From a virus, in the IMG/VR virus record IMGVR_UViG_3300025543_004178, positions 1 to 48,897 of that record: a stretch of DNA of 48,897 nt; one strand, written 5' to 3'. Below are positions 7,871 through 38,999 of the stretch, piece by piece. The translations under genes and the position numbers were made by a program. The stretch's first letter is position 1; each line of letters begins with the position of its first letter. A model generated the notes under the pieces. That model saw nothing but the letters and a program-made list of their open reading frames with translations. It did no database searches and was not told the DNA's origin.

Positions 7871-7920
7871 TTTAGATAAGTCTAAGTAGGTCCATCAGGG
7901 AAATGGTGGAGATACTTATT

Positions 7921-7992
7921 TCCTCGCCACCCTTAGACGAGGATATGAGAGACGGATTGGTTGCCCTGCCTAGTCTCGGTCAAACGGCAGGG
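7921..7992 (-). other. Structured 5' leader of psbA (two hairpins)
   Basis: The roughly 150-nt untranslated leader between the promoter and the psbA ATG can form two stems: CCCTGCC/GGCAGGG (7964-7970 with 7986-7992) and TCCTCG/CGAGGA (7921-7926 with 7938-7943). Cyanobacterial psbA leaders are known to control mRNA stability, so a similar role is inferred. Apart from this leader and the promoter, 7871-8055 holds no gene. Confidence 0.55.
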
Positions 7993-8027
7993 GTTCACAC
8001 AACGTTACATTTCGTAAGTCGTTGGTG

Positions 8028-16463: not shown

Positions 16464-17279
16464 TTAGGACTCGTAAGTCTCAGGTTGAGGAGGGGGTCCT
16501 GATGGATTACTGATTCTACCTAAGTAAGGATCATAATCCATTAACTCATCAATGCTCATCTGTGATCCTTTTTGTGACCAGAATCCTAACTGAGCGTTGA
16601 AGTTTCCTTTGTGGAATGCATCCACATGCTCTGGGTGAATTGATGATCCCAATTCAGTCCTGTAAAGAAGGAGAGGAAGAGCGTAAGTGTTACCTGAGTT
16701 ATAAAGGAGGTCGTCAGCAACTGGGCGTGGACGAACTCCGTTGTCCAATTTATACTTTTCCCCACGACAGTGAAGTCGAAGCATCTTCTCAGCGTGGTGC
16801 CTGGTGATTAGATAACAAGCGGTGGAAAATTCATTAACAAACCTCTTGTGAATTTTGACGTTGATGTCTCCAGTACAAATGATTGCGATCTGGCAGACAT
16901 CCCAGTCGTAAGGAATTTTAGCATAAAAATCTCGCCAGTTAAAATTCCAGAACCTTACAAGATCCAGACTGACATCATCCTCCATTATGACAGCGTAAGG
17001 TTCTCCACTGTCATAAAATTGTTTGATTGCTTTCAGGTGAGAGGTCACACATCCGATTTCACCAGAAGACATCATGTCAGGATAACGTCCCTTGATGATG
17101 TCACTCAGGTCATCCTCTCGTCCATCATAAGCAGACACACGAGTGTAATTTTCGATCTCCCAGTACTTAAACTGATCCTCCATGTACTCTCGTCTCTCTG
17201 GTTGCCCATCAAGATTGAGGTAATAAATGGGACCGATGCCCTTCAGTTTAAATGCCGATTTGTTTCTGTCTCTGTCCAT
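16464..17279 (-). CDS. Glycosyltransferase family 25-like (LPS modification)
   Basis: 271 aa. GT25 pattern: N-terminal IYYLNLDGQPERREYMEDQF, then SSGEIGCVTSHLKAI and AVIMEDDVSLD with the metal-binding D-D-V. A late VADDLLYNSGN may be the acceptor-site motif. Probably adds a hexose to lipopolysaccharide or a surface glycan. It overlaps the epimerase upstream by 32 bp and closes the sugar cluster. C-terminus Pro-rich. Confidence 0.88.
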   Translation of the reverse strand: MDRDRNKSAFKLKGIGPIYYLNLDGQPERREYMEDQFKYWEIENYTRVSAYDGREDDLSDIIKGRYPDMMSSGEIGCVTSHLKAIKQFYDSGEPYAVIMEDDVSLDLVRFWNFNWRDFYAKIPYDWDVCQIAIICTGDINVKIHKRFVNEFSTACYLITRHHAEKMLRLHCRGEKYKLDNGVRPRPVADDLLYNSGNTYALPLLLYRTELGSSIHPEHVDAFHKGNFNAQLGFWSQKGSQMSIDELMDYDPYLGRISNPSGPPPQPETYES

Positions 17280-18159
17280 GAATCCAATCTAACACGTCAA
17301 TCTCAGGTTTCCACCCGATCACTTTTTCAATCTTAGTTATGTCAGCCAGAGTTGTCTCTGCTTCGCCTTGACGGGGAGGAAGATAAACCTGGTTGTCAGA
17401 GATGGCATTGGCAAGTTCTTGAATGGAATAATTCTTTCCACTTCCGACATTGAAGAACTCACCCTCATGTCCCTGCAGAGGCATCACAGCAGCAAGATAA
17501 TTTGCTCGTGCAACGTCCTGAACATGAATGAAGTCTCTTCGTGCCTGACCAGTTCCAACAATGGTCAGAGCGTCTCCAACCGCTGCCTGGCGCTGGAAGA
17601 CACCGATGACAGGAGAGTACTGACCCTTAGTTGGAGACCTCTCCCCAAACACATTAAAGTAACGAAGAGACACTGTTTCCAACCCATAGAGGTCAGTGTA
17701 CATCTTACAGAATTTCTCTGCAGCAATCTTGGATGCAGAGTAAGGATTCAAACAATCATCAGGTTGTGTCTCCACATTTGGTGCTGGGTTCCTACCATAA
17801 CCCGAAGATGTAGAGGAATAAACCAGACGCTTGACATTTGCTTCTCTGGCACACTGAAGGACCACAGTGGTTCCCACACAGTTCTTATGGACTGCATTGA
17901 TGGGGTTTTTGATGGCAGGTTGAAGTCGTGATTCTGCTGCAAGGTGGAACACATAATCCACACCTTCAAACAGTTCTCTCATGGCATCATAATCTGTGAT
18001 GTCCACAAGGTGAGACTTACTGGTGTCTGCCCAATAAAAGTTATCGTTGTTGGCACTCTGGTTATCAACTTGAATAACCTGATGCCCTTGTTCATTCAAA
18101 TAATCAACCAGGTTTGACCCGATGAAACCAGCGGCACCTGTTACTAAGCTGCGTGTCAT
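17248..18159 (-). CDS. NAD-dependent sugar-nucleotide epimerase (GalE-like extended SDR)
   Basis: 303 aa. NAD-binding GAAGFIGSNLVDYL at the N-terminus, FHLAAES, SSTSSGYG and the catalytic YSASK (Tyr-x-x-x-Lys). Mid-length extended SDR, most like UDP-glucose/UDP-glucuronate 4-epimerases. A UDP-sugar dehydrogenase at 32710 could supply UDP-glucuronate. Substrate not certain. ATGA-type overlap with the HAD fusion upstream. Confidence 0.9.
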   Translation of the reverse strand: MTRSLVTGAAGFIGSNLVDYLNEQGHQVIQVDNQSANNDNFYWADTSKSHLVDITDYDAMRELFEGVDYVFHLAAESRLQPAIKNPINAVHKNCVGTTVVLQCAREANVKRLVYSSTSSGYGRNPAPNVETQPDDCLNPYSASKIAAEKFCKMYTDLYGLETVSLRYFNVFGERSPTKGQYSPVIGVFQRQAAVGDALTIVGTGQARRDFIHVQDVARANYLAAVMPLQGHEGEFFNVGSGKNYSIQELANAISDNQVYLPPRQGEAETTLADITKIEKVIGWKPEIDVLDWIHGQRQKQIGI

Positions 18160-18884
18160 TTTTTATACGATTGATAAATTAGAGTCTTAACTCTGGTGGT
18201 AGAGTATGGGTGTTCGGATCGAGGAATCCAAACGATTGGTAAACCGATTCCAACTCCCGTGTAACTGCCGTCACTGTAATCATCCCCCAAGAAACGCATA
18301 TGATATTCACCACTATCAAGCAGAGCAAGATATTGATCTTCCTGATCGTAGGTGACAACTTCATCGACATCTTTCAGTGACAGAAGAATTTCTTTGCGAT
18401 CCTCCACAGACTGAACTGGTTTAAGTTTCCAGTCCCGTTCTGTGTTGGGGTCTTCATGAAGAGCAACTGTGAGATGGTTACAGTAATTCTTCGCATACTT
18501 GAACATTCTAACATAACCAGGATGAAGAATGTCGAAAGCACCAGCAACGATACCCTTCGTTACAGGGAGAGTCTTTCTCCAGTCCTCAACATTGATACCT
18601 TTGTCATCAATGAACAAGTCAGCATTAGGTTTGTGAAACATGGGTTCCAGTTCATGAAACTTGACTCCCCACTTCTTCAACTGTTGTTTCGTCTTGAGAC
18701 TCCAGTCCATCCCTGAACCACGACCACGAGCAGTCATCAGAATGATATAATGTCCCTCATCATAAAGACGGTTCACAGTCTCAACCATGAACCGCTTAGG
18801 TGTGGAATTGTCGTAATCATTCTTCCCCTTATCTGTTACAGGAGTGTCACAGATGGTTCCGTCAATATCAAAACAATATCTCAT
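18156..18884 (-). CDS. Fusion: HAD-like phosphatase plus cytidylyltransferase-like domain
   Basis: 242 aa from ATG 18884 (ATGA overlap with the SIS gene). Residues 1-110 are a HAD domain: YCFDIDGTICDTP (nucleophile Asp and second Asp), IILMTARGR and FIDDKG. Residues 120-240 are a glycerol-3-phosphate-cytidylyltransferase-like domain with GAFDILHPGYVRMF and PYSTTRVK. The second His of the usual HxGH is Tyr (HPGY), so transferase activity is uncertain. In this cluster the HAD half could act as a heptose-bisphosphate phosphatase (GmhB role), which is inference. Confidence 0.85.
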   Translation of the reverse strand: MRYCFDIDGTICDTPVTDKGKNDYDNSTPKRFMVETVNRLYDEGHYIILMTARGRGSGMDWSLKTKQQLKKWGVKFHELEPMFHKPNADLFIDDKGINVEDWRKTLPVTKGIVAGAFDILHPGYVRMFKYAKNYCNHLTVALHEDPNTERDWKLKPVQSVEDRKEILLSLKDVDEVVTYDQEDQYLALLDSGEYHMRFLGDDYSDGSYTGVGIGLPIVWIPRSEHPYSTTRVKTLIYQSYKK

Positions 18885-19399
18885 CCAACAACTCCATGAA
18901 GGAAGATCTGGTGGACACATTCTATCACACCATAATTATCGCTGTCAATGTAATAATTCCAGAGTGCTTTCTTGGCACGAGTTCTGAGTCTGTTGTTAAT
19001 AAAGAAACCACTCAGAATTCCATAAGCAATGTTCTTATCTTCACAATATTTCTGACACTTGATAATGTTCTCCGACTCACCACTGGAACTGATGAGAATC
19101 ACCAGAGTGTCTGGTTCAACATGATACTTCAAGAACTGAAGGTATGACTCCTCATAACCAAAGTCATTGGCAAGCATGGTGATCATTGAAGCATCAGAGA
19201 AGATCGACACCTTCTTATTGTGAAACTTCATGTAATCCTGAGAGATGTGAGAAGCGACAGAACTGCTTCCTCCGTTTCCCAGAATCAAAATTCTCTTATG
19301 GTTACCAAACGCTTCCTGGAACTTTACAAACTCCTCTTCAGCATGAGCACTCTTCAGTGCTTCCACGTACTCATCAAATGGATTCACCACGCACTCCAT
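18881..19399 (-). CDS. gmhA: SIS-domain phosphoheptose-isomerase-like protein (GmhA-like)
   Basis: 172 aa, one SIS domain. ILGNGGSSSVASHISQDYMK, DASMITMLANDFGYEE and ISSSGESENI are the GmhA signature pieces: the last two hold substrate-phosphate Ser/Thr, and the D-A-S and G-Y-E region is typical of sedoheptulose-7-phosphate isomerase. It would make D-glycero-D-manno-heptose 7-phosphate. ATG 19399 overlaps the kinase upstream; a GTG at 19402 is possible. Confidence 0.88.
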   Translation of the reverse strand: MECVVNPFDEYVEALKSAHAEEEFVKFQEAFGNHKRILILGNGGSSSVASHISQDYMKFHNKKVSIFSDASMITMLANDFGYEESYLQFLKYHVEPDTLVILISSSGESENIIKCQKYCEDKNIAYGILSGFFINNRLRTRAKKALWNYYIDSDNYGVIECVHQIFLHGVVG

Positions 19400-20318
19400 C
19401 ACTTACTAAATTGATTTTAACATTATCGTAAGGGATCCTCAAACTGTCCTTCTCTGAGAAGGTCAGAAAGAATCCACCATTTCCAGCACCACAGAGACGA
19501 TGTGCGAGAACAGTTGGTTCTTCTGTCAACTCTTCATCCATTTCCCTGATGTGTTTATTTTCTGTAATCAGATCACAAGTTTTTTTCTTCTTCTCCCACC
19601 CTTCTCCAATCAAATAAAGAAATTCATCATGCTCATTGAACTTGATGGCATCATAAGCATGTTTCACTGTTTCCAACAGTGGTTTTACCTTGTCCAGATT
19701 TTCGGTAATTCCTTTGAGAACCACCTTTGAATTTCTTGTAACTCCTGTAAACACAAGATGTAAATCATGAAAGCCCAATACACTATCAGGAAGATACTCA
19801 AACCTAACAGTGCCGTCACGAAGGAACTCAATTCTCTTGAAACCCCCAACACCGCAGCCGTAGGGATCCTGATAACCGCAGTAAGGATTGAACTTAAGTT
19901 CGAGAGTGTAGGCAAGTGCACAGATCTCTGTTTCTGATAAGTTAATATTTAGAAACATTGAACAAGCTTTGATCAAACTGATCAGGTAAGAAGACGAAGA
20001 CGCTAACCCGCTCCCCTGTGAGTAAGCATCACTTGTCAATGTAACCTGACATGGTGGCATGTTGAAGTGTTCTAACACAACTCTTACCACCTCGTTTTGG
20101 ATGTCCTTAATCTCAGACACCTCTTCTCGTCGTGAGTAATTGATAATGTATTTGTGGTCTCGATTGAAACCAAACTTATCCTGACTGATGGTCACATAAG
20201 TCTTCAGGTCACAAGTGAAACTGATAACAGATCCATAACCATACTTTTCAACGAAGTAAGGGTTATCAGTGGGTCCACCAAACAATGACACCCTCAACGG
20301 ACACGAAGCAATAAACAT
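19374..20318 (-). CDS. hddA: GHMP-family heptose-7-phosphate kinase (HddA-like)
   Basis: 314 aa. GHMP motif 1 PLRVSLFGGPTDNPYF, motif 2 QGSGLASSSSYLIS (ATP loop) and motif 3 RLCGAGNGGFFLTF are clear. This subgroup includes D-glycero-alpha-D-manno-heptose-7-phosphate 1-kinase, and the GmhA-like partner next door supports that substrate. Strange next to a PfkB-type kinase that would do the same step on the other anomer (21855-22592). Confidence 0.88.
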   Translation of the reverse strand: MFIASCPLRVSLFGGPTDNPYFVEKYGYGSVISFTCDLKTYVTISQDKFGFNRDHKYIINYSRREEVSEIKDIQNEVVRVVLEHFNMPPCQVTLTSDAYSQGSGLASSSSYLISLIKACSMFLNINLSETEICALAYTLELKFNPYCGYQDPYGCGVGGFKRIEFLRDGTVRFEYLPDSVLGFHDLHLVFTGVTRNSKVVLKGITENLDKVKPLLETVKHAYDAIKFNEHDEFLYLIGEGWEKKKKTCDLITENKHIREMDEELTEEPTVLAHRLCGAGNGGFFLTFSEKDSLRIPYDNVKINLVSDGVRGESI

Positions 20319-20677
20319 TAGTCACCTTTCTCCAGTCTGTAACTGTCCTCTTCAAAGTGTGTAGTTGAGAACTCAAACAGTTCAGTATCCTTCAGTGCTA
20401 CGAACTGATGTCTCATTCCTGTGGGGATATGCATCTTGTCACCCTCCACCAGGATCTTCATGTCTGCGGTTTCCAAATTATTCTGGAAACTGTAGTACAT
20501 TTCAATGGCACCCTTCTGAACGTAGAAGACTTCATCCTTCAGTTCATGATAATGAAAGGAACACTTCCTTCCCTTAGCAATGAACAGGAGTTTTCCACAG
20601 TACTCAGGACAATTTGCAATCCATTTTTCATAACCCCATCCTTTAGGAACAAACTTGATGGGATCACTCGCAAACAT
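20318..20677 (-). CDS. Cupin, phosphomannose-isomerase-type
   Basis: 119 aa from ATG 20677 (AGGAG 8 nt upstream); the longer frame overlaps the transferase by 130 bp and is unlikely. WGYEKWI, the metal-binding pair FHYHELKDEVFYV and the second motif IPTGMRHQFVAL form a one-domain cupin like type II mannose-6-phosphate isomerase or sugar epimerases. The exact sugar is unknown; it may supply a mannose or heptose derivative. Confidence 0.82.
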   Translation of the reverse strand: MFASDPIKFVPKGWGYEKWIANCPEYCGKLLFIAKGRKCSFHYHELKDEVFYVQKGAIEMYYSFQNNLETADMKILVEGDKMHIPTGMRHQFVALKDTELFEFSTTHFEEDSYRLEKGD

Positions 20678-21080
20678 TCTTGCATCTCCTGATGATTTCA
20701 CTGGATGAATACCCCCCAACCCGATTAAAGAACCGAGTCGCTGCCGCAAACTCTCTTCCGACTCCTTCATGATTTCTCCAATCTCCTCCATCAACTAAAA
20801 TGTCAGGTCGGTAAAACTGAATGAGTTCTTCCAACTCTTCTCGCGTGTCAAATCCTAACACGAGATCAATGTATTTAATCGCTTCTAAAAGAGTCTTTCT
20901 GTCAGCGAAGGTATTGATAGGTCGTGACGGTCCTTTGTCTCGTGCGATCTTTGCATCGGAATCGAGACCAACAATGAGCCTTCCTTCAGTTCCTGCCAAG
21001 GACTTGGCTGCAGCAAAGAGGGCAATATGCCCAGGATGAAGTAAATCAAAACACCCATTACACCACACTACCTTCGACAT
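20664..21080 (-). CDS. hldE: Heptose-1-phosphate nucleotidyltransferase (HldE C-domain-like)
   Basis: 138 aa, the stand-alone nucleotidyltransferase half of RfaE/HldE. NGCFDLLHPGHIALF has the catalytic HxGH, LIVGLDSDAKIARDKG the nucleotide loop, and GYSSSEII the S/T-S/T-x-I end motif. It would join ATP (or CTP) to heptose 1-phosphate. The kinase half is a separate gene at 21855-22592, as in some bacteria where HldE is split. Confidence 0.87.
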   Translation of the reverse strand: MSKVVWCNGCFDLLHPGHIALFAAAKSLAGTEGRLIVGLDSDAKIARDKGPSRPINTFADRKTLLEAIKYIDLVLGFDTREELEELIQFYRPDILVDGGDWRNHEGVGREFAAATRFFNRVGGYSSSEIIRRCKNVCE

Positions 21081-21867
21081 AATCTTTCACAGTTTTGAAC
21101 TCATAATCACCCCACTCTTGTTTTGCACAGGTGAATTCCTGATACTTTCCTCTGAGGTGCGGTGGGAAACTAATGTACTTTATCTCTGCATTATAACACT
21201 TAGCAACTACATCTGCAACTTCTTGGAAAGAGATTGGTTTGCTGGTGCCCAGATCATAAATTCCTGATGGTTTTTCGTTGTCCAAAACAATGTTAATCAG
21301 GTCATCCACATGCACAAAGTCTCTGCAGAATCTTTCAGACATGTGGAACAGAGTGATCTCACCTTTGTTCTTTGCTTCCTTGATAAACTTGGAGACAGGC
21401 GAGGATTGATTTCTCTCAACCTTATCTTCCTCATGTGGTCCATACACATTGAAATATCTGAATCCCTGGATGTGCTTGAATTCATCCATATGATCCTGAA
21501 CCCAATAATCCACTGTCAGTTTTGACAGAGCATAAAAATTCAGGGGGTTGTGGTGGGGAAAGTGATTTCCATAAACAGATGCAGAGGAAGCATACTTCAC
21601 GGGGATACCTTTGACCTTGGCAATCTCAAACAATGAGATGGTGAAGCACACATTGTAGTTGTGAATCTTCTCAATGTTTGTTTCCGTTGTGTCGGAGACT
21701 GCACCCTGGTGGAGAATGAACTCCACATCATTCCAGTCCTCAAATGTCTTGAGGAACGTCCAGCAATCATTGAATTCAACAGGAACAACTTCCCAAGTTT
21801 GCTCCAATACTTTTCTGAAGTTCTTCCCAATGAAACCATTGGCTCCAGTAAGAATTACTTTTGGCAT
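21058..21867 (-). CDS. hldD: ADP-glyceromanno-heptose 6-epimerase-like (HldD)
   Basis: 269 aa extended SDR. GANGFIGKNF binds NAD(P); ILHQGAVSDTTETN, KYASSASVYG, YALSKLTVDYWV and GFRYFNVYGPHE match HldD/RfaD, including the Tyr-x-x-x-Lys and the H-Q-G-A piece. It would turn ADP-D- into ADP-L-glycero-D-manno-heptose, the last activation step. It overlaps the PfkB kinase by 13 bp. Confidence 0.9.
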   Translation of the reverse strand: MPKVILTGANGFIGKNFRKVLEQTWEVVPVEFNDCWTFLKTFEDWNDVEFILHQGAVSDTTETNIEKIHNYNVCFTISLFEIAKVKGIPVKYASSASVYGNHFPHHNPLNFYALSKLTVDYWVQDHMDEFKHIQGFRYFNVYGPHEEDKVERNQSSPVSKFIKEAKNKGEITLFHMSERFCRDFVHVDDLINIVLDNEKPSGIYDLGTSKPISFQEVADVVAKCYNAEIKYISFPPHLRGKYQEFTCAKQEWGDYEFKTVKDYVEGSVV

Positions 21868-22592
21868 AGCGTGGTTACTCCTTTGTGTTGTACGACTTCA
21901 GAGGCACACTTGTTGGCAAAGTTTATTGCAGACTCAAGATTGTTAGTCTCAGTGTATTGAAATGCTAGTCCTGCCATAAAGGTATCACCTGCACCAGACA
22001 CATCCAAAACCTCAACTTTATTCATAACAGGAAATATTTTACCACGATAAACGCAACCTTCACCGCCAACTGTTTTTATTACCTTATCGTTGACGAATCG
22101 ATTGATAAAAGTTTTTGACTTTTCGTATTCGTGATTGTTAATCTTAATAAACTTTGCTTTGAGTGCCCAGATGTCTAGAACCTTCTTCGTGTCTAGAAAG
22201 ACCTGTGGGTGGTTGGCACAAATGTATTCAATGTCTTCCCCTGTTAGAAACCCCTTATCATAGTCGGAGATAACAATTGAATCATAATCAAAGCTAATTT
22301 TATTTATGTCAATCGGTTTTGCTGAGAAACTTGTATCAACTCTTACAAACATGTGGTTGCTTTTGTCATCAACGAACCTGGTCTTCTTCATCTGTTTCCA
22401 GTTGTCGTTGGTCAGGATGCTGCAAGCATTAGACAGTCCCTGAAGGTTCTTGTAGACGTTGTAAGCCATCCCAGGTGTTTCCACCACGTTGACTGTCTCC
22501 AACACAGGGACAGGTCTGTCAGGCGCTAATCTGGATGTCTTACAGTAAGTATAAACATCGAGACAACTGTCCCCAATAACAAGGATACCCAT
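21855..22592 (-). CDS. hldE: PfkB-family heptose-7-phosphate kinase (HldE N-domain-like)
   Basis: 245 aa. The PfkB end motif LDVSGAGDTFMAGLAFQY holds the catalytic Asp. An N-terminal IGDSCLDVYTY, VPVLETVNVVETPGMAYN (substrate lid) and a central DYDKGFL fit the D-glycero-beta-D-manno-heptose-7-phosphate kinase half of HldE. Slightly shorter than usual (about 310 aa), so some loops are missing. Works with the transferase at 20664. Confidence 0.87.
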   Translation of the reverse strand: MGILVIGDSCLDVYTYCKTSRLAPDRPVPVLETVNVVETPGMAYNVYKNLQGLSNACSILTNDNWKQMKKTRFVDDKSNHMFVRVDTSFSAKPIDINKISFDYDSIVISDYDKGFLTGEDIEYICANHPQVFLDTKKVLDIWALKAKFIKINNHEYEKSKTFINRFVNDKVIKTVGGEGCVYRGKIFPVMNKVEVLDVSGAGDTFMAGLAFQYTETNNLESAINFANKCASEVVQHKGVTTLCQK

Positions 22593-23785
22593 CAGTACCG
22601 AGACTTACGCTCAACAATTATAGCAGGTCTACCACTTTCCACAGCACCACGGAAAGCATGAATTACATCATCCCCAGTCACAGGATCATGGACAGGAAAA
22701 CTAACTGCCTCACGGAAAACCTTAGTGAAGTCTTGTGAGTGTGTGATGCCAGAATAGAAAGGACCAGCGTCAGCAGTTACAGCACGAATGATGACAGGAC
22801 ACTTAAACTCACCATGAGAGATCCGTTCGATCTTGTCAATGTGATTGATGATTGCGTCAGCAGCAACCAACATGAAATCATGACGTTCGTAATAAACCAC
22901 AGGAAGAAATCCTTCGAACGACATACCAATTGCAAGACCTGCCATCAGGTTCTCTGCCACAGGTGTCTCAAGTTTCTGTTCGTCTGGAACATCCTTCAGA
23001 GTTCCAATGGCATTGCCATACTTAACGTTGTAACCAATAAAGATTGCACCCTGCTCACCCAGTTCAGTCTGAGTTTGAATCATTGCCTCTTTATATGAGA
23101 GGTCAGTCTTCTCGTAAGTTGGATAAGTAAAGGGTTCCAGGGGTGGGAAGTATTCGTTATCAGTCTTCTTCACTGCCTTGGACAGATCAATCATCCCAGG
23201 TTTGCGGCAGTGAGGATAGGTGCAGGTGTATTGATAACGAATGACGTTGGGAGAGTTCCACTCAGGATGTGCAGTCTTACCCCAACGGTCCTCATTGGTA
23301 GCTTCGCAACTGCGATCGTTACTTTCAATAACAAAAGTGCATGGAAGATCAAAACCATCCACATAACGAACTGCTTCCGCCAAGTGTCCATTATCTTCCG
23401 TCCCGTCACCCACGAAACACCAGACTCGCTGGTCTGATCCTTTCCGTTTGAGTGCCCACGCAACGCCAGCAGCAATAGCAGGAGTGCCGCCAATGATAGC
23501 AGAGAGGAAGAAATTCCGTTCTCGATCATAAACAAACATGCTCCGTCCATCTTTAATCTTCTGCTCCAATTCCTCAGGAGGAATGCCGTGGAGCAGAGCG
23601 TGATAGTGATTACGGTGGTTGGAGATTACATAATCACCTTCCTTAATGTCTTTGAAAATATTAATTAGTTGTTCTTCGTTACCACCCGACAGGTGAAACA
23701 AAAAGGGCAACTGGTTGTCCATGTAAAGGTCACCAATCCTGTCCTCAAAGGCAATCAGTTCCTCTTTAGTCCACACCTTTCTCAT
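22592..23785 (-). CDS. Compact TPP-dependent E1-like enzyme, alpha and beta parts fused
   Basis: 397 aa. Residues 1-200 resemble the E1-alpha (acetoin/pyruvate dehydrogenase) with GDGTEDNGHLAEAVRYV plus a downstream ESNDRS, the GDG...N TPP motif. The rest has a beta-like VAENLMAGLAIGMSFEG and a flavin-free PYR-type domain with YYERHDFMLVAADAI. Normal alpha and beta total over 650 aa, so the C-terminal dimer domain is missing. No E2 or E3 partner is in view. In a sugar cluster it may add a two-carbon unit to a sugar; inference. Confidence 0.8.
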   Translation of the reverse strand: MRKVWTKEELIAFEDRIGDLYMDNQLPFLFHLSGGNEEQLINIFKDIKEGDYVISNHRNHYHALLHGIPPEELEQKIKDGRSMFVYDRERNFFLSAIIGGTPAIAAGVAWALKRKGSDQRVWCFVGDGTEDNGHLAEAVRYVDGFDLPCTFVIESNDRSCEATNEDRWGKTAHPEWNSPNVIRYQYTCTYPHCRKPGMIDLSKAVKKTDNEYFPPLEPFTYPTYEKTDLSYKEAMIQTQTELGEQGAIFIGYNVKYGNAIGTLKDVPDEQKLETPVAENLMAGLAIGMSFEGFLPVVYYERHDFMLVAADAIINHIDKIERISHGEFKCPVIIRAVTADAGPFYSGITHSQDFTKVFREAVSFPVHDPVTGDDVIHAFRGAVESGRPAIIVERKSRY

Positions 23786-25427: not shown

Positions 25428-25615
25428 TCAATCCCCCTATAAGTTGGACCACACCCATAGAAGTTCTCACACAGGAAATCAAAGTCCTCCACCAGAACCT
25501 CCAGTGGTGTCTTCTCTTCAGGTTTTGCAACCTGATTTAACTCTTCTTCCAACTGTTTCAAGTCCAGTGGTGGGAGGTCGGGTGGCGTTGTTGCCAATAA
25601 GAAAGGAAGAATCAT
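25421..25615 (-). CDS. Small protein, 64 aa
   Basis: ATG 25615 overlaps the upstream stop (ATGA) and the stop overlaps the SDR start by 7 bp. Pro/Leu/Glu-rich, with a C-terminal CENFYGCGPTYRGIEW containing a TYRG piece reminiscent of the 1582-1749 gene. No function assigned. Confidence 0.65.
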   Translation of the reverse strand: MILPFLLATTPPDLPPLDLKQLEEELNQVAKPEEKTPLEVLVEDFDFLCENFYGCGPTYRGIEW

Positions 25616-26388
25616 AGAGTGACAACGTAATCAACACAGTCAAGATAAAAAGCACCAAATGGTGGTACCTCATCATCTAACCATTTTAGCATATTCCCAT
25701 AAAGAGTTTGGGAAACAAACACATTAACGTTGAGTGATTCGTTGTATCTTTGAACTGCTGTTGCCAGGGCAACTGACCCACTGTGAAGACCCCATAAACC
25801 ATAGGAGGAATTCATTAGATCACAATAATGATAAATGGACGTGACCACAACATCTGTGTCACAATCCACATCCACCTTTGATTCACTGACAGTTTGATCA
25901 AAGACAACTCTGGCAAACCTTTTGTTAGGATGCATGTCTTTTAGTTCGGCGTAAGTCCAGGCAAGTCTGTTGAGATCATAACCATTTCCAACACCATCAA
26001 ACTTAAGACTGGTTGCAGTAAAGTCCACCAGTATGGTGTCCTCAAACCCCTCAATCTTTTTAGGTTCGTAATAAATCTTAGGTCTGGTGTTGGTAGGTTT
26101 CAGACCGTGAAGATGTTCCCAGTTACTAATCCAGTTTCCTGTGTGGTTCTTAACTTCAATCTCGGGAATGTCTCCTGCTGTCCTCTTTCCCTCTTTGACT
26201 CCCTTCACATAAGGGTTCAGTCCCCACACCAAATCGTAAATTTCTTTGTTGCGAAACTCACTCCCATCTGCCAAGTAAGTTTCTCTCCTCTGCTGCTTAT
26301 AAAATTCTTCGGGTAATGTGGAGAACTGGAGTTGATCTCCAAGTCCTCCATTCCATGCACCAAGAATTACATCAAGCCTCTTTCTCAT
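25612..26388 (-). CDS. GT9-like glycosyltransferase (candidate heptosyltransferase)
   Basis: 258 aa. GGLGDQLQFSTLPEEFY resembles the glycine-rich N-terminal loop (GDxxxxTP) of ADP-heptose LPS heptosyltransferases, and GLWGLHSGSVALATAVQRY resembles their C-terminal sugar-nucleotide loop (S/H-x-x-x-A-L-A). The rest is divergent. Given the heptose-activation genes nearby, it may be the transferase that uses ADP-heptose. Overlaps def by 17 bp. Family call is tentative. Confidence 0.65.
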   Translation of the reverse strand: MRKRLDVILGAWNGGLGDQLQFSTLPEEFYKQQRRETYLADGSEFRNKEIYDLVWGLNPYVKGVKEGKRTAGDIPEIEVKNHTGNWISNWEHLHGLKPTNTRPKIYYEPKKIEGFEDTILVDFTATSLKFDGVGNGYDLNRLAWTYAELKDMHPNKRFARVVFDQTVSESKVDVDCDTDVVVTSIYHYCDLMNSSYGLWGLHSGSVALATAVQRYNESLNVNVFVSQTLYGNMLKWLDDEVPPFGAFYLDCVDYVVTL

Positions 26389-26815
26389 AACGTGTCATCA
26401 ACTTCCCATCTAAGTGATCAACTTCGTGTTGAACGATACGTGCTTCAATTCCATCAAGCACCCATCTCTTATATTTACCATTGGCATCTTGGAACTTAAC
26501 TTTGATGATACTGGGTCTCTCAATTTCCATGTAATGATCTGGAATACTCAAACATCCTTCCTCCATCAACACAGTTTCTTCTGAAAATTCAGTGATGTTT
26601 GGATTGATCATTTCCTGAATCTCACCATCTTCCATCTGCACAATGATGAGGCGAAGGTTATAACCAACTTGTGGAGCGGCAAGACCCACACCTCCAAGTT
26701 CAACCATCTTATAAATCATTGCCTCCATGAGGTCACAGAGTTCCATGTTAATAAGAGTTGGGACAGATTCCCTTGCTAAACAGGGGTCTCCATCAAGTTT
26801 GAGTTCGAGTTCCAT
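26372..26815 (-). CDS. def: Peptide deformylase
   Basis: 147 aa, a little shorter than bacterial enzymes. All three motifs present: GVGLAAPQVG, EGCLSIP and QHEVDHLDG (Cys and two His bind the metal, Glu is catalytic). Removes the N-formyl group from new proteins. Cyanophage deformylases are known to be compact and are proposed to favour D1 maturation. It lies in the sugar cluster rather than near psbA. Confidence 0.97.
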   Translation of the reverse strand: MELELKLDGDPCLARESVPTLINMELCDLMEAMIYKMVELGGVGLAAPQVGYNLRLIIVQMEDGEIQEMINPNITEFSEETVLMEEGCLSIPDHYMEIERPSIIKVKFQDANGKYKRWVLDGIEARIVQHEVDHLDGKLMTRYEKEA

Positions 26816-29008: not shown

Positions 29009-29332
29009 TCAAAAACGATAAGGTTTGTTAGATTCAAAATGAACATGAGGACCAGAACTCCATTCTCCCGTATCCCCACAAAGACCAATCACATCACCTT
29101 GAAGGTAATAAGTCTGTGGACCAACTTCACCAAGATGTGAATAAGAAGTCTCCCTATCCTCATACTTTAGCACAAAGACCCAACCCATCTTGTGTGACCA
29201 GTAGAAAGTTCCAGCACCAGCATGAACTGCCCGAACAGGATCTCCTGGAATGCAGGAAAAATCGTATGCCTGATGAGTGGGTGATGGGTCTTGAGTAATC
29301 ACACCCTCAACGGGATAATCGTAAACATACAT
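29009..29332 (-). CDS. Small M23/LytM-type peptidase domain
   Basis: 107 aa. HxxxD (THQAYDFSC), YSHLGEV and the G-P-H-V-H-F pair supply the zinc ligands (His, Asp, second His) and catalytic His of M23 peptidases. Half the size of usual LytM domains, with no signal peptide, so export or virion location is unclear. Odd inside a glycan cluster; could cut peptidoglycan stems or be a decorating enzyme. Confidence 0.85.
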   Translation of the reverse strand: MYVYDYPVEGVITQDPSPTHQAYDFSCIPGDPVRAVHAGAGTFYWSHKMGWVFVLKYEDRETSYSHLGEVGPQTYYLQGDVIGLCGDTGEWSSGPHVHFESNKPYRF

Positions 29333-32713: not shown

Positions 32714-33867
32714 ACGTTCACCACAAAAACACCTTCAGTAATATTATCCTTACTGTCTACAAATTTTACCTTATCTCCGTAAGTTGCTTGAAGATCACTG
32801 TAAACACGATTATCAATCTTCGGATCAACCAAAATGTAAACTGACTTGTCCCATGCCAGAAGATCCTGTGCCAACCTGAACTGTTGACTCTCCGTCAGGA
32901 TGTCAGTTCCTTTCTTGTAAGTGATGGACTCAAAAAAGAATGGTTTGTTATGTTCATTCATCTTGATGTACCAGTCACGAATGAACCTGGCATGTTGGTT
33001 GTTGATCTCATCAGTTACAACACCCAAGTTGTATTCAAGTCCAAGACTTTGAGCGTAAGCACCGAATGCCCTGTTATCTCTGGGAAGACAGGGACCACCA
33101 TAACCAAAACCGTAACCAAGATACTTAGAACCCACACGGGAGTCTGTTCCAATGGTCCTCAGGACAGCAGTAACCTCATCACCACATCCTGCCTGTTGGA
33201 GAAGATCACCAAGCATGTTGGCATAACTGATCTTGGTGGTAAGGAAACAGTTCAGTGCAATCTTTGTGATCTCTGCTGCCTTTGCTGACATCCCACAGAC
33301 GATTGCCCTGGTGGTTTGAATCTTTTGATAAAGAGTCTTAATATCCTTAACGATTCTTTCGGCATATTGATCACTCTGATCATAACCCAGGAGAACCATG
33401 TCTGCCTTTCTCAGATCATTGACAATGGAACCTTGTGCGATGAACTCAGGATTGTAGAGAACCTTAATGTTGTTAGGAAGTTTCTCTTTGAATCGGTCAC
33501 AGTCACCAGGGTTCACTGTGGATCCAATGACAAAGTACTTAGTCTTCTCACAGAAGGAAAAGTCCTCAACCACCTGCCAGATAGCAGAAACATCATAGTT
33601 ACCGTCATCCAGTGAAGGGGTGGCAACCAGTGTGTAAATCAGATCACACTCATCAATAACTTGAGCGTTACTGGTGGTTGCTCTCAGATTCTCTGATGCT
33701 CTAAGGAGATTCAGAACCTCAGGTTCATTTGTTTTGATTCTTTTGTTATTGATCCCCGCGACATAATCCTCTCGGATGTCGGAGACCAATACATCATAAC
33801 CTGCTGCTTCACACAGGAGGGCAAAGCAGATGCCAAGTCTGCCTGCCCCAATTACACCAATCTTCAT
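32710..33867 (-). CDS. UDP-sugar / GDP-mannose 6-dehydrogenase family
   Basis: 385 aa. GVIGAGRLGICFALL binds NAD; IGSTVNPGDC, YNPEFIAQGSI, GMSAKAAEITKIALNCFL (active-site Lys and Asn) and GYGGPCLPRDNRAF with the catalytic Cys form the full set. Makes a UDP-uronic acid (or GDP-mannuronate). The GalE-like gene at 17248 could epimerise the product. ATGA-type coupling to the GT11 gene. Confidence 0.92.
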   Translation of the reverse strand: MKIGVIGAGRLGICFALLCEAAGYDVLVSDIREDYVAGINNKRIKTNEPEVLNLLRASENLRATTSNAQVIDECDLIYTLVATPSLDDGNYDVSAIWQVVEDFSFCEKTKYFVIGSTVNPGDCDRFKEKLPNNIKVLYNPEFIAQGSIVNDLRKADMVLLGYDQSDQYAERIVKDIKTLYQKIQTTRAIVCGMSAKAAEITKIALNCFLTTKISYANMLGDLLQQAGCGDEVTAVLRTIGTDSRVGSKYLGYGFGYGGPCLPRDNRAFGAYAQSLGLEYNLGVVTDEINNQHARFIRDWYIKMNEHNKPFFFESITYKKGTDILTESQQFRLAQDLLAWDKSVYILVDPKIDNRVYSDLQATYGDKVKFVDSKDNITEGVFVVNV

Positions 33868-34604
33868 AACTTGAATGTAGGAATGGGATCCATCTTGTGT
33901 TTGTTACGGGCGTTGAACCAGTGAAGTTCCCTAACAGCAGGACCAGTTCCAGTCTCCATTGCCAGCTCCAGATCCTCATAAGAGGCACCCAGTTGATCTT
34001 CGTCGGTTCTCTTGTCGTCCCAGAGACCGTCAGTGGGTTTTGCTTCGATAATATCTTGACTTACGCCCAGATGCTTTCCAAGTTCCCATACTTCAGTCTT
34101 ATAAAGGTCAGCGATGGGAGCAATGTCCACACCACCGTCTCCATATTTAGTGTAAAACCCAACACCATAATCTTCGACCTTGTTACCTGTGCCGACAACC
34201 AAACCAGAGTTCTCACCAGCAATCTGGTAAAGGGTAACCATTCTCAGACGTGAGCGGGTGTTGGCAAGTGCCAGTGGGTCCTGAGCATAACCAGACAAAG
34301 ACTTCTTAAACTGTTCAAACACTTCAGTTAGATCAAACTGAACCATCGAAACGTTTTCATAATTTTCAGTCAACCAAAGAAGATGATTGATTGAAAGTGT
34401 TCGTTGTCCTTCATCCTGGTGAATTGGCATTCCAATTACATAAACAGGAAGTCCAGTTTCAGCACAGAGAGTTGAAACCACAGCAGAGTCGATGCCACCA
34501 GAGACACCGACCACAAATGATTTCAACCCACTTCCTTTAAGATAATCAGACAGCCACGAGGTTATTCTCGTTTTCAGTTTGTCGTAGTCCTTGATTCTGT
34601 TCAT
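33864..34604 (-). CDS. nadE: NAD+ synthetase, ammonia type
   Basis: 246 aa from ATG 34604; the longer frame enters the upstream gene. VVGVSGGIDSAVVSTL (PP-loop), GTGNKVEDYGVGFYTKYGDG, DIAPIADLYKTEVWELG and PTDGLWDDKRTDEDQLG are the classic NadE motifs. Makes NAD from deamido-NAD. In this cluster it may feed the NAD-dependent dehydrogenases and epimerases, or restore NAD against host depletion. Confidence 0.96.
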   Translation of the reverse strand: MNRIKDYDKLKTRITSWLSDYLKGSGLKSFVVGVSGGIDSAVVSTLCAETGLPVYVIGMPIHQDEGQRTLSINHLLWLTENYENVSMVQFDLTEVFEQFKKSLSGYAQDPLALANTRSRLRMVTLYQIAGENSGLVVGTGNKVEDYGVGFYTKYGDGGVDIAPIADLYKTEVWELGKHLGVSQDIIEAKPTDGLWDDKRTDEDQLGASYEDLELAMETGTGPAVRELHWFNARNKHKMDPIPTFKL

Positions 34605-35646
34605 TGTCAATCTGTTGCTTAATCCAATTATAAGTTCTTGAGATGCCTTCTTCAAGAGTCATCCCATAATCCCATCCTAATTCTTTACGGATGACATCGT
34701 TGTTACTGTTGCGACCACGAACACCCAAAGGTGCATCCAATTTGTGACGACGCTGAACTGCCTTGCCAGAAACTTTGGCAACAGTCTCAACCAATTGATT
34801 GATGGTGACCATTTCTTCGGAACCAATGTTCACTGGTCCGATGAACTCAGAGTCCATCAATCGACGAGTTGCTTCGATGCACTCATCGACATATAGAAAA
34901 GATCGAGTTTGTTCACCGTCTCCCCAGACTTCGATTGCTCCACCAACTTCTGGGAGTCTTCCGACTTTACGGCAGATGGCAGCAGGAGCCTTCTCTCGAC
35001 CCCCGTCCCAAGTTCCCTCTGGGCCAAAGATATTATGGTAACGGGCAACACGCACAGCAATACCATAATTCCGATGGTATGCAAAGTAAAGTCTTTCAGA
35101 GAATAACTTTTCCCATCCGTATTCGCTATCTGGATTAGCGGGGTATGCAGATTGTTCACGGCAGTCGGGGTTGTTAGGATCGAGTTGGTTGTGTTCTGGA
35201 TACATGCAGGCAGATCCAGAATAGAAGATCTTAGTGTAGTTTCGACCAGTCCTCTCGTTCCTTTGACGTTGACTCTCCAGTACGTTTAGGTTGATGGTTG
35301 CAGAGTTATGCATGATATCTGCATCGTTTTCACCAGTGAAGACAAAACCTGCTCCACCCATGTCAGCAGCAAACTGATAAATCTCATCAAATGAGTGAAC
35401 ATAACGATAAGGAACTTCCTTGTAGAAGTTACCTGCTGTTCCCTTGTACTCCAGGACACGACCAACGAAGTCGAAGTCTCGGAGGTCACCAAGAATAAAC
35501 TCATCCGCTTCAGAGTCTGAGAACTCAGGACGCTTGAGGTCTACACCTCGGACCCAATAACCCTCAGACTTGAGGCGCTTCACCATATGACTTCCAATAA
35601 ATCCACCAGCACCCAGAACGAGTGCCTTCTTCTGATATTGAGACAT
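34546..35646 (-). CDS. GDP-mannose 3,5-epimerase-like extended SDR
   Basis: 366 aa. GAGGFIGSHMVKRL, YQFAADMGGAGFV, YSGSACMYPEHNQ, SEYGWEKLFSER (Tyr-x-x-x-Lys), YHNIFGPEGTWDGGREKAP and MVTINQLVETVA strongly resemble plant and bacterial GME, which turns GDP-D-mannose into GDP-L-galactose. That product could be the donor for the GT11 genes. Overlaps nadE by 59 bp; first gene of the sugar transcript. Confidence 0.9.
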   Translation of the reverse strand: MSQYQKKALVLGAGGFIGSHMVKRLKSEGYWVRGVDLKRPEFSDSEADEFILGDLRDFDFVGRVLEYKGTAGNFYKEVPYRYVHSFDEIYQFAADMGGAGFVFTGENDADIMHNSATINLNVLESQRQRNERTGRNYTKIFYSGSACMYPEHNQLDPNNPDCREQSAYPANPDSEYGWEKLFSERLYFAYHRNYGIAVRVARYHNIFGPEGTWDGGREKAPAAICRKVGRLPEVGGAIEVWGDGEQTRSFLYVDECIEATRRLMDSEFIGPVNIGSEEMVTINQLVETVAKVSGKAVQRRHKLDAPLGVRGRNSNNDVIRKELGWDYGMTLEEGISRTYNWIKQQIDNEQNQGLRQTENENNLVAV

Positions 35647-35989: not shown

Positions 35990-36007
35990 GTGCGTGAGGT
36001 AGGCTCG

Positions 36008-36085
36008 CCACTTGTTTTTGGGAGAAACAAGAAACTCAGAGGTCATCGACTCCACCACTTGCTCTTTAGAGAAGCAAGAAACTCA
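36008..36085 (-). repeat. Two tandem hairpin-forming repeats
   Basis: Two units of about 31 nt (36008-36038 and 36055-36085, period 47) share GAGTTTCTTG and CAAGTGG and each folds into a stem (CTTGTTT/AAACAAG and CTTGCT/AGCAAG). Arms covary between units (G-C for A-T), indicating selection on structure. The gap 35990-36127 has no gene. Confidence 0.65.
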
Positions 36086-36127
36086 TGGGGTTCATCCCGA
36101 CCAGTGCTGTTAGAGTCCATCCGTGAC

Positions 36128-38697: not shown

Positions 38698-38925
38698 AGA
38701 GGGAGGTTGCCCTCCCCGCAGGTCAGAGTGCTATTGCTTAAACAGCAACGGCAGTCCTCCTAAAGGATACAATTTTATTTGCATCTGTTGTTTGCTTATC
38801 CAAGCAGGTTTCAGTTATAACCCATAACACCCTGTCGAAACCATTGCGTCCCCATGAGTGGAGACGAGGAGAATCGAACTCCTGTCCAAGACATCGGTAT
38901 TATAACCTATTCCTCCGAAGAGGAA
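38698..38925 (-). ncRNA. ssrA: Circularly permuted two-piece tmRNA
   Basis: Minus strand, acceptor piece first (38925 to 38859): T-arm AGGAG-TTCGATT-CTCCT and 3' strand CGTCTCC plus A. A 5-nt spacer (38854-38858) follows, then the coding piece starts GGGGACG-CAATGGTTTCGACAGG. The acceptor stem GGGGACG/CGTCTCC has G3-U70, the alanine identity pair, and GGTGTTAT pairs with ATAATACC of the other piece (P2). The tag reads ANKIVSFRRTAVAV then stop, with resume codon GCA. It ends with hairpin GGGAGG-gcaa-CCTCCC. It rescues stalled ribosomes. Piece ends are estimates. Confidence 0.93.
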
Positions 38926-38999
38926 AGCCTTCTGTCGGACTTGAACCGACGACCTACGGTTTACAAAACCGTTGCTCTATCCAGCTGAGCTAAGAAGGC
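38926..38999 (-). tRNA. tRNA-Thr (UGU)
   Basis: Acceptor GCCTTCT/AGAAGGC, anticodon loop TTTGTAA (TGT), T-loop GTTCAAGTC. Directly upstream of the tmRNA acceptor piece with no spacer. Confidence 0.93.

Follow-up and report, generated by a model that had tools for sequence, protein, structure and literature searches.

Does a cyanophage encode the route to an activated heptose, a sugar reported absent from the lipopolysaccharide (LPS) of its typical hosts? The question is raised by a 48,897-nucleotide stretch of viral DNA (IMG/VR record IMGVR_UViG_3300025543_004178; "the window" below means this whole stretch), in which a first-pass annotation read one run of genes as a nearly complete heptose activation pathway. 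The window is an ocean cyanophage fragment and carries psbA-family genes, ribonucleotide reductase, PstS, a cyanobacterial-type tmRNA and tRNAs. The phage-encoded tmRNA is permuted and lies inside the tRNA array (38701-38942, minus strand; Rfam RF01851, 122.7 bits), and a PhotoRC-II RNA is found upstream of psbA (7908-8007, minus strand). A glycan cluster on the minus strand starts at about 35646 and ends at 16464; immediately upstream of it is a wcaG RNA motif (35997-36086, minus strand; Rfam RF01761, 59.8 bits against a gathering score of 42). By eye, the cluster also contains M23-peptidase-like (29009-29332), peptide-deformylase-like (26372-26815) and NAD-synthase-like (33864-34655) genes. 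Cyanophage LPS gene clusters, and co-occurring clusters of nucleotidyltransferase, kinase, cupin and HldD genes, were noted in 2010 (PMC3037559), and heptose genes in cyanophage SynMITS9220M01 were reported in 2020 (PMC7378029).

All genes named in the first-pass annotation are long overlapping minus-strand open reading frames; they are present in the order it gave, and for each the best or near-best curated model is the named family. The list itself needed amending: a cupin gene had been missed, the HAD phosphatase domain is one half of a fusion, and the block continues to a further epimerase. With these changes, we think the locus is probably a cyanophage surface-glycan cluster with two cassettes for sugar activation; sedoheptulose 7-phosphate is the most likely starting compound of both.

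Cassette A (20318-22592, minus strand) consists of four genes. The first encodes a candidate PfkB heptose 7-phosphate kinase similar to the N-terminal domain of HldE (21855-22592); its best model is TIGR02198 (rfaE_dom_I; 105.7 bits, 2.5e-30; cut-off 345 bits) and its best PDB match is the heptose 7-phosphate kinase 4e84. It is followed by an HldD-like ADP-heptose 6-epimerase (21058-21867; 60% identical to P-TIM68), for which TIGR02197 (heptose_epim) is by far the best model (1.6e-58; 198.4 bits against an equivalog cut-off of 274.6), and by a candidate heptose 1-phosphate adenylyltransferase similar to the C-terminal domain of HldE (20664-21080; best model TIGR02199, rfaE_dom_II, 2.2e-31; 108.6 against 181.5 bits). 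The last gene, between this nucleotidyltransferase and the GHMP kinase of the next cassette, encodes a metal-binding cupin (20318-20677) whose relatives are annotated as "cysteine dioxygenase." A frequent companion of cassette A is a thiamine-diphosphate enzyme of 397 residues in which E1-alpha and E1-beta halves are fused (22592-23785, minus strand). Several loci with relatives of this fused enzyme (among L134-L148) have PfkB but neither HldD nor the nucleotidyltransferase.

Cassette B (17248-20318, minus strand) begins with an HddA-related GHMP kinase, a candidate heptose 7-phosphate kinase (19374-20318; best model NF049969, 2.3e-23, 83.2 against 600 bits; PDB 3k85, 3.9e-23). Next comes a GmhA-related SIS-fold isomerase (18881-19402; best model TIGR00441, gmhA, 2.8e-14, 53.4 against 209.45 bits), whose PDB matches are phosphoheptose isomerases. 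The third gene (18156-18884, likely start ATG at 18884, the open reading frame extending to 18920) fuses an N-terminal HAD phosphatase-like domain to a second nucleotidyltransferase, similar to TagD and the HldE C-domain. The HAD catalytic motifs, including FDxDGT, are mostly retained and the best PDB match is entry 9iqw. The first-pass annotation took this domain to supply the GmhB step, but a curated profile search found no match to a GmhB model; free-standing relatives match TIGR01689, a capsule biosynthesis phosphatase. The cassette ends with an NAD-dependent sugar epimerase of the SDR family (17248-18159; Pfam Epimerase, 7.4e-63; 72% identical to SynMITS9220M01). Its nearest NCBIfam model is galE (170 bits, below cut-off), and by eye it has the motifs SSTSSGYG and YxxxK and lacks the dehydratase TDE motif.

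The SIS, GHMP, PfkB, nucleotidyltransferase and HldD genes are thus nearest to heptose families, as had been claimed, but all score below the NCBI equivalog cut-offs. They can thus be called related to heptose enzymes but not proven orthologs, and paralogous substrates are possible.

By gene content and order, the genes fall into two cassettes that can be separated, and do not make up a single pathway. We rejected the single-pathway reading because cassettes A and B are found apart from each other. There is a candidate for every step to ADP-L-glycero-D-manno-heptose, as first proposed, but the candidates are divided between the two sets. We scanned IMG/VR with an alignment of the GHMP kinase and kept 80 of 118 relatives, which together with two genome loci gives 82. 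The order GHMP-SIS-HAD::NT-SDR (NT, nucleotidyltransferase) is found in 71 of them, and 8 of the remaining 11 end at a contig edge. Most cassette B loci do not have cassette A. The cassette A gene set, in turn, recurs in 60 locus groups and seven isolates. It is shared with the LPS clusters of P-SSM2, P-TIM68 and S-SM2 which, unlike the window, lack a SIS gene and a cassette B-type GHMP kinase. A tblastn search of the cluster genes against known phages gives the order ADH, E1-like, PfkB, HldD, NT, cupin, HAD, SDR, GT25 in P-TIM68; from E1 to cupin this is the order in the window, at about 59-81% identity. In SynMITS9220M01 (PMC7378029) the same search finds GHMP, SIS, HAD::NT and SDR in the window's order at 65-72% identity. 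The stretch of that genome that we read does not contain the HldD-HldE-C set; in its place, a canonical HddA and an HddC-like gene accompany the cupin. The recurrence of gene order, 71 of 82 loci for cassette B and PfkB-HldD-NT-cupin also in P-TIM68, indicates that the arrangement is not due to chance.

This conservation bears on the idea, put forward as possible by Sullivan et al. (2010; PMC3037559), that LPS genes in large-genome phages are functionless. Every gene here does diverge from the cellular enzymes. Yet the frames are open with overlapping starts, the sets are conserved across independent loci and active-site residues are largely retained, and we regard decaying or filler DNA as a very improbable explanation.

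The junction between the cassettes can be seen by comparing cupin-HAD-SDR-GT25 in P-TIM68 with cupin-GHMP-SIS-HAD::NT-SDR-GT25 in the window. The SDR of P-TIM68 is dissimilar to that of the window, and its HAD is free, not fused. Judged from this comparison, cassette B has displaced the HAD and epimerase of a cluster like that of P-TIM68. Since cassette B would have replaced that end of cassette A, the single fused HAD of the window would have to serve both cassettes; the mosaics we checked hold one HAD at most.

What might the two cassettes make? In cassette A, sedoheptulose 7-phosphate would be isomerized by the cupin or, in the window, by the SIS enzyme. The PfkB kinase would then form the 1,7-bisphosphate, the HAD would remove the 7-phosphate, the HldE-C-like enzyme would add AMP and HldD would epimerize the product to ADP-L-glycero-D-manno-heptose. 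Compared with the known pathway to ADP-L-glycero-beta-D-manno-heptose (GmhA, HldE, GmhB, HldD), the window likewise has homologs of the PfkB kinase, the HldE-C-like nucleotidyltransferase and HldD in one cassette, with a GT9-fold gene nearby. It differs in a split HldE, a HAD outside the GmhB family, a cupin where GmhA is usual, and in being phage-encoded. In cassette B, the SIS isomerase, GHMP kinase, HAD, fused nucleotidyltransferase and SDR would make a second NDP-heptose, CDP- or ADP-linked. The known counterpart is the pathway to GDP-D-glycero-alpha-D-manno-heptose (GmhA, HddA, GmhB, HddC), in which a SIS isomerase is likewise paired with an HddA kinase. The window differs in that its nucleotidyltransferase is CTP_transf_like (TagD/HldE-C fold) and fused to a HAD, not of the HddC NTP_transferase type, and its HddA score is only 83 against the cut-off of 600. 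The earlier suggestion that two kinase classes serve two heptose donors fits these data, because the kinase cassettes occur independently.

Two active-site changes are fixed in cassette B. In the SIS proteins, Asp replaces the catalytic Glu65 (E. coli numbering) in 84 of 84 sequences. His180 is retained in all 80 sequences with residues at that position, and N52, S55, H61, D94, S119 and S124 are also retained. In the nucleotidyltransferase, HxGY is found instead of HxGH in 70 of 70 sequences. With these changes, cassette B may make a different NDP-heptose. Its SIS, GHMP kinase and TagD-like nucleotidyltransferase might also have been recruited for an NDP-sugar that is not a heptose, with cassette A alone leading to ADP-heptose. 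The two fixed changes would fit such recruitment, as would the fact that these three genes are the most divergent and that the SDR is closer to GalE than to HldD. The nucleotidyltransferase profile also favors TagD (68.8 bits) over E. coli HldE-C (48.5 bits); these scores point toward TagD without settling which nucleotide is used. On the other hand, the PDB matches of both the SIS and GHMP proteins are heptose enzymes. To our knowledge, a SIS isomerase and an HddA-like GHMP kinase occur together in heptose routes only, and we consider the recruitment unlikely. Two heptose donors remain our preferred reading; besides the two altered active sites, the HAD outside the GmhB family and the fragmentary state of the window count against it. 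In LR756511, a 595-kb uncultured phage genome, the GHMP kinase and nucleotidyltransferase are in frame in one open reading frame of 458 residues (L007, 6986-8362), which links the kinase to the nucleotidyltransferase. An Acidimicrobiaceae MAG contig that looks phage-like by eye (L120, 9208-11219) has a free nucleotidyltransferase with HxGH, a GHMP kinase and an adjoining GmhA-like SIS gene.

Which enzyme carries out the first step where cassette A stands without B? We merged cassette A loci sharing an exact 200-mer into 60 groups. The cupin is present in 60 of 60 and a SIS gene in 0 of 60; as the loci were fetched by GHMP, PfkB, cupin and GT9-gene queries, only statements within a cassette are safe. 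The PfkB scan alone gives 47 HldE-C loci with the cupin and without SIS, and one locus with cupin, SIS and GHMP. Searching the complete genomes of P-TIM68, P-SSM2, S-SM2, S-SSM7, S-CAM1, S-CAM3 and Sf-FS3 gave not a single SIS domain match. The set thus comprises five genes (kinase, HAD, nucleotidyltransferase, epimerase and cupin) for a pathway of five steps. Since the cupin is always present and SIS never, the cupin may replace GmhA. It retains its metal ligands (HxH, Glu, His). A single-sequence search of PDB ranks L-ribose isomerase first (8e-4), and profile matches include D-lyxose isomerase. We tentatively suggest, as a full reading that is somewhat doubtful, that it is an unrecognized sedoheptulose 7-phosphate isomerase that stands in for GmhA in the ADP- and GDP-heptose cassettes of cyanophages, with cassette B providing a second, possibly CDP-linked, heptose donor through altered active sites. 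The prediction turns the missing step into something testable in one assay.

Quite possibly the cupin has another role, as an NDP-sugar epimerase or ketoisomerase, or as a mannose 6-phosphate isomerase for GDP-fucose, and phages with cassette A use heptose 7-phosphate made by host GmhA. In fold comparison CapF, KdgF, phosphomannose isomerase and D-lyxose isomerase tie on Z, leaving isomerase and epimerase undistinguished. GT11 fucosyltransferase-like genes occur in the window, and one near relative of the cupin (L308) has no heptose gene in reach. Among 151 genomes from the family of Prochlorococcus AG-363-P19, 38 have gmhA-like SIS matches, but most have none. The constant presence of the cupin in cassette A groups also argues against another role, and so does SynMITS9220M01, where the cupin is flanked by a canonical HddA (287 bits) on one side and an HddC-like gene on the other.

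The gene named "phosphoheptose isomerase" in cyanophages is a HAD protein related to capsule phosphatases. HAD genes so annotated, with no SIS domain, are found in L005 (12747-13091), L004 (10541-10879) and L302 (13151-13480). The name is widely propagated and needs correcting, because gmhA is listed among well-characterized viral metabolic genes (PMC9238414). In the part of the literature we covered, we found no earlier account of two distinct cassettes, of the misnamed HAD or of this role for the cupin; cyanophage heptose genes and LPS clusters were already known.

A GT9-like gene (25612-26388, minus strand) had been suggested as a user of the product, and its fold supports this. The AlphaFold2 model (258 residues, pLDDT 92) matches WaaC (Z 14.0), TibC (13.6) and WaaF (12.4) in alignments of about 220 residues, scores higher than those of the unrelated structures compared. 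Foldseek places heptosyltransferases first, including TibC in its ADP-heptose complex. Asp18 is invariant in 23 sequences. The gene is recognized by its fold alone: Pfam Glyco_transf_9 gives no match, there is no credible family match and a sequence search of PDB returned nothing useful. Judged from the model, the product is likely a heptosyltransferase, which makes an acceptor step likely, and it would transfer ADP-L-glycero-D-manno-heptose. Homologs lie upstream of the PfkB kinase in loci fetched with GHMP and PfkB; a scan with the GT9-like gene itself also finds loci without PfkB within reach (L209-L214).

If the preferred reading is true, a cyanophage adds this sugar to the surface of the infected cell or the virion, a direct re-coating. 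The first-pass annotation considered the pathway foreign to the host. This holds only in part. Heptose is indeed absent from the LPS of Synechococcus WH8102 and CC9311 (PMC4515613), but the cassette B kinase, or a complete ADP-heptose gene set, is present in some picocyanobacteria. Our survey covered the AG-363-P19 family, with 300 genomes for the cassette B kinase and the 151 above for SIS and HldD. The kinase is found in 5 of 300 (at least 294 bits; the next matches reach at most 138 bits), and a strict-pattern scan of the genome collection finds it in two records only. HldD is above cut-off in 2 of 151 genomes, and one genome of the family holds HldE, HldD, GmhB and GmhA together. One of the host kinase loci is on a 1.9-Mb contig and is hence chromosomal. 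Four of the five host kinase genes have, judged by eye, an apparent ilvC and glycosyltransferase-like genes nearby.
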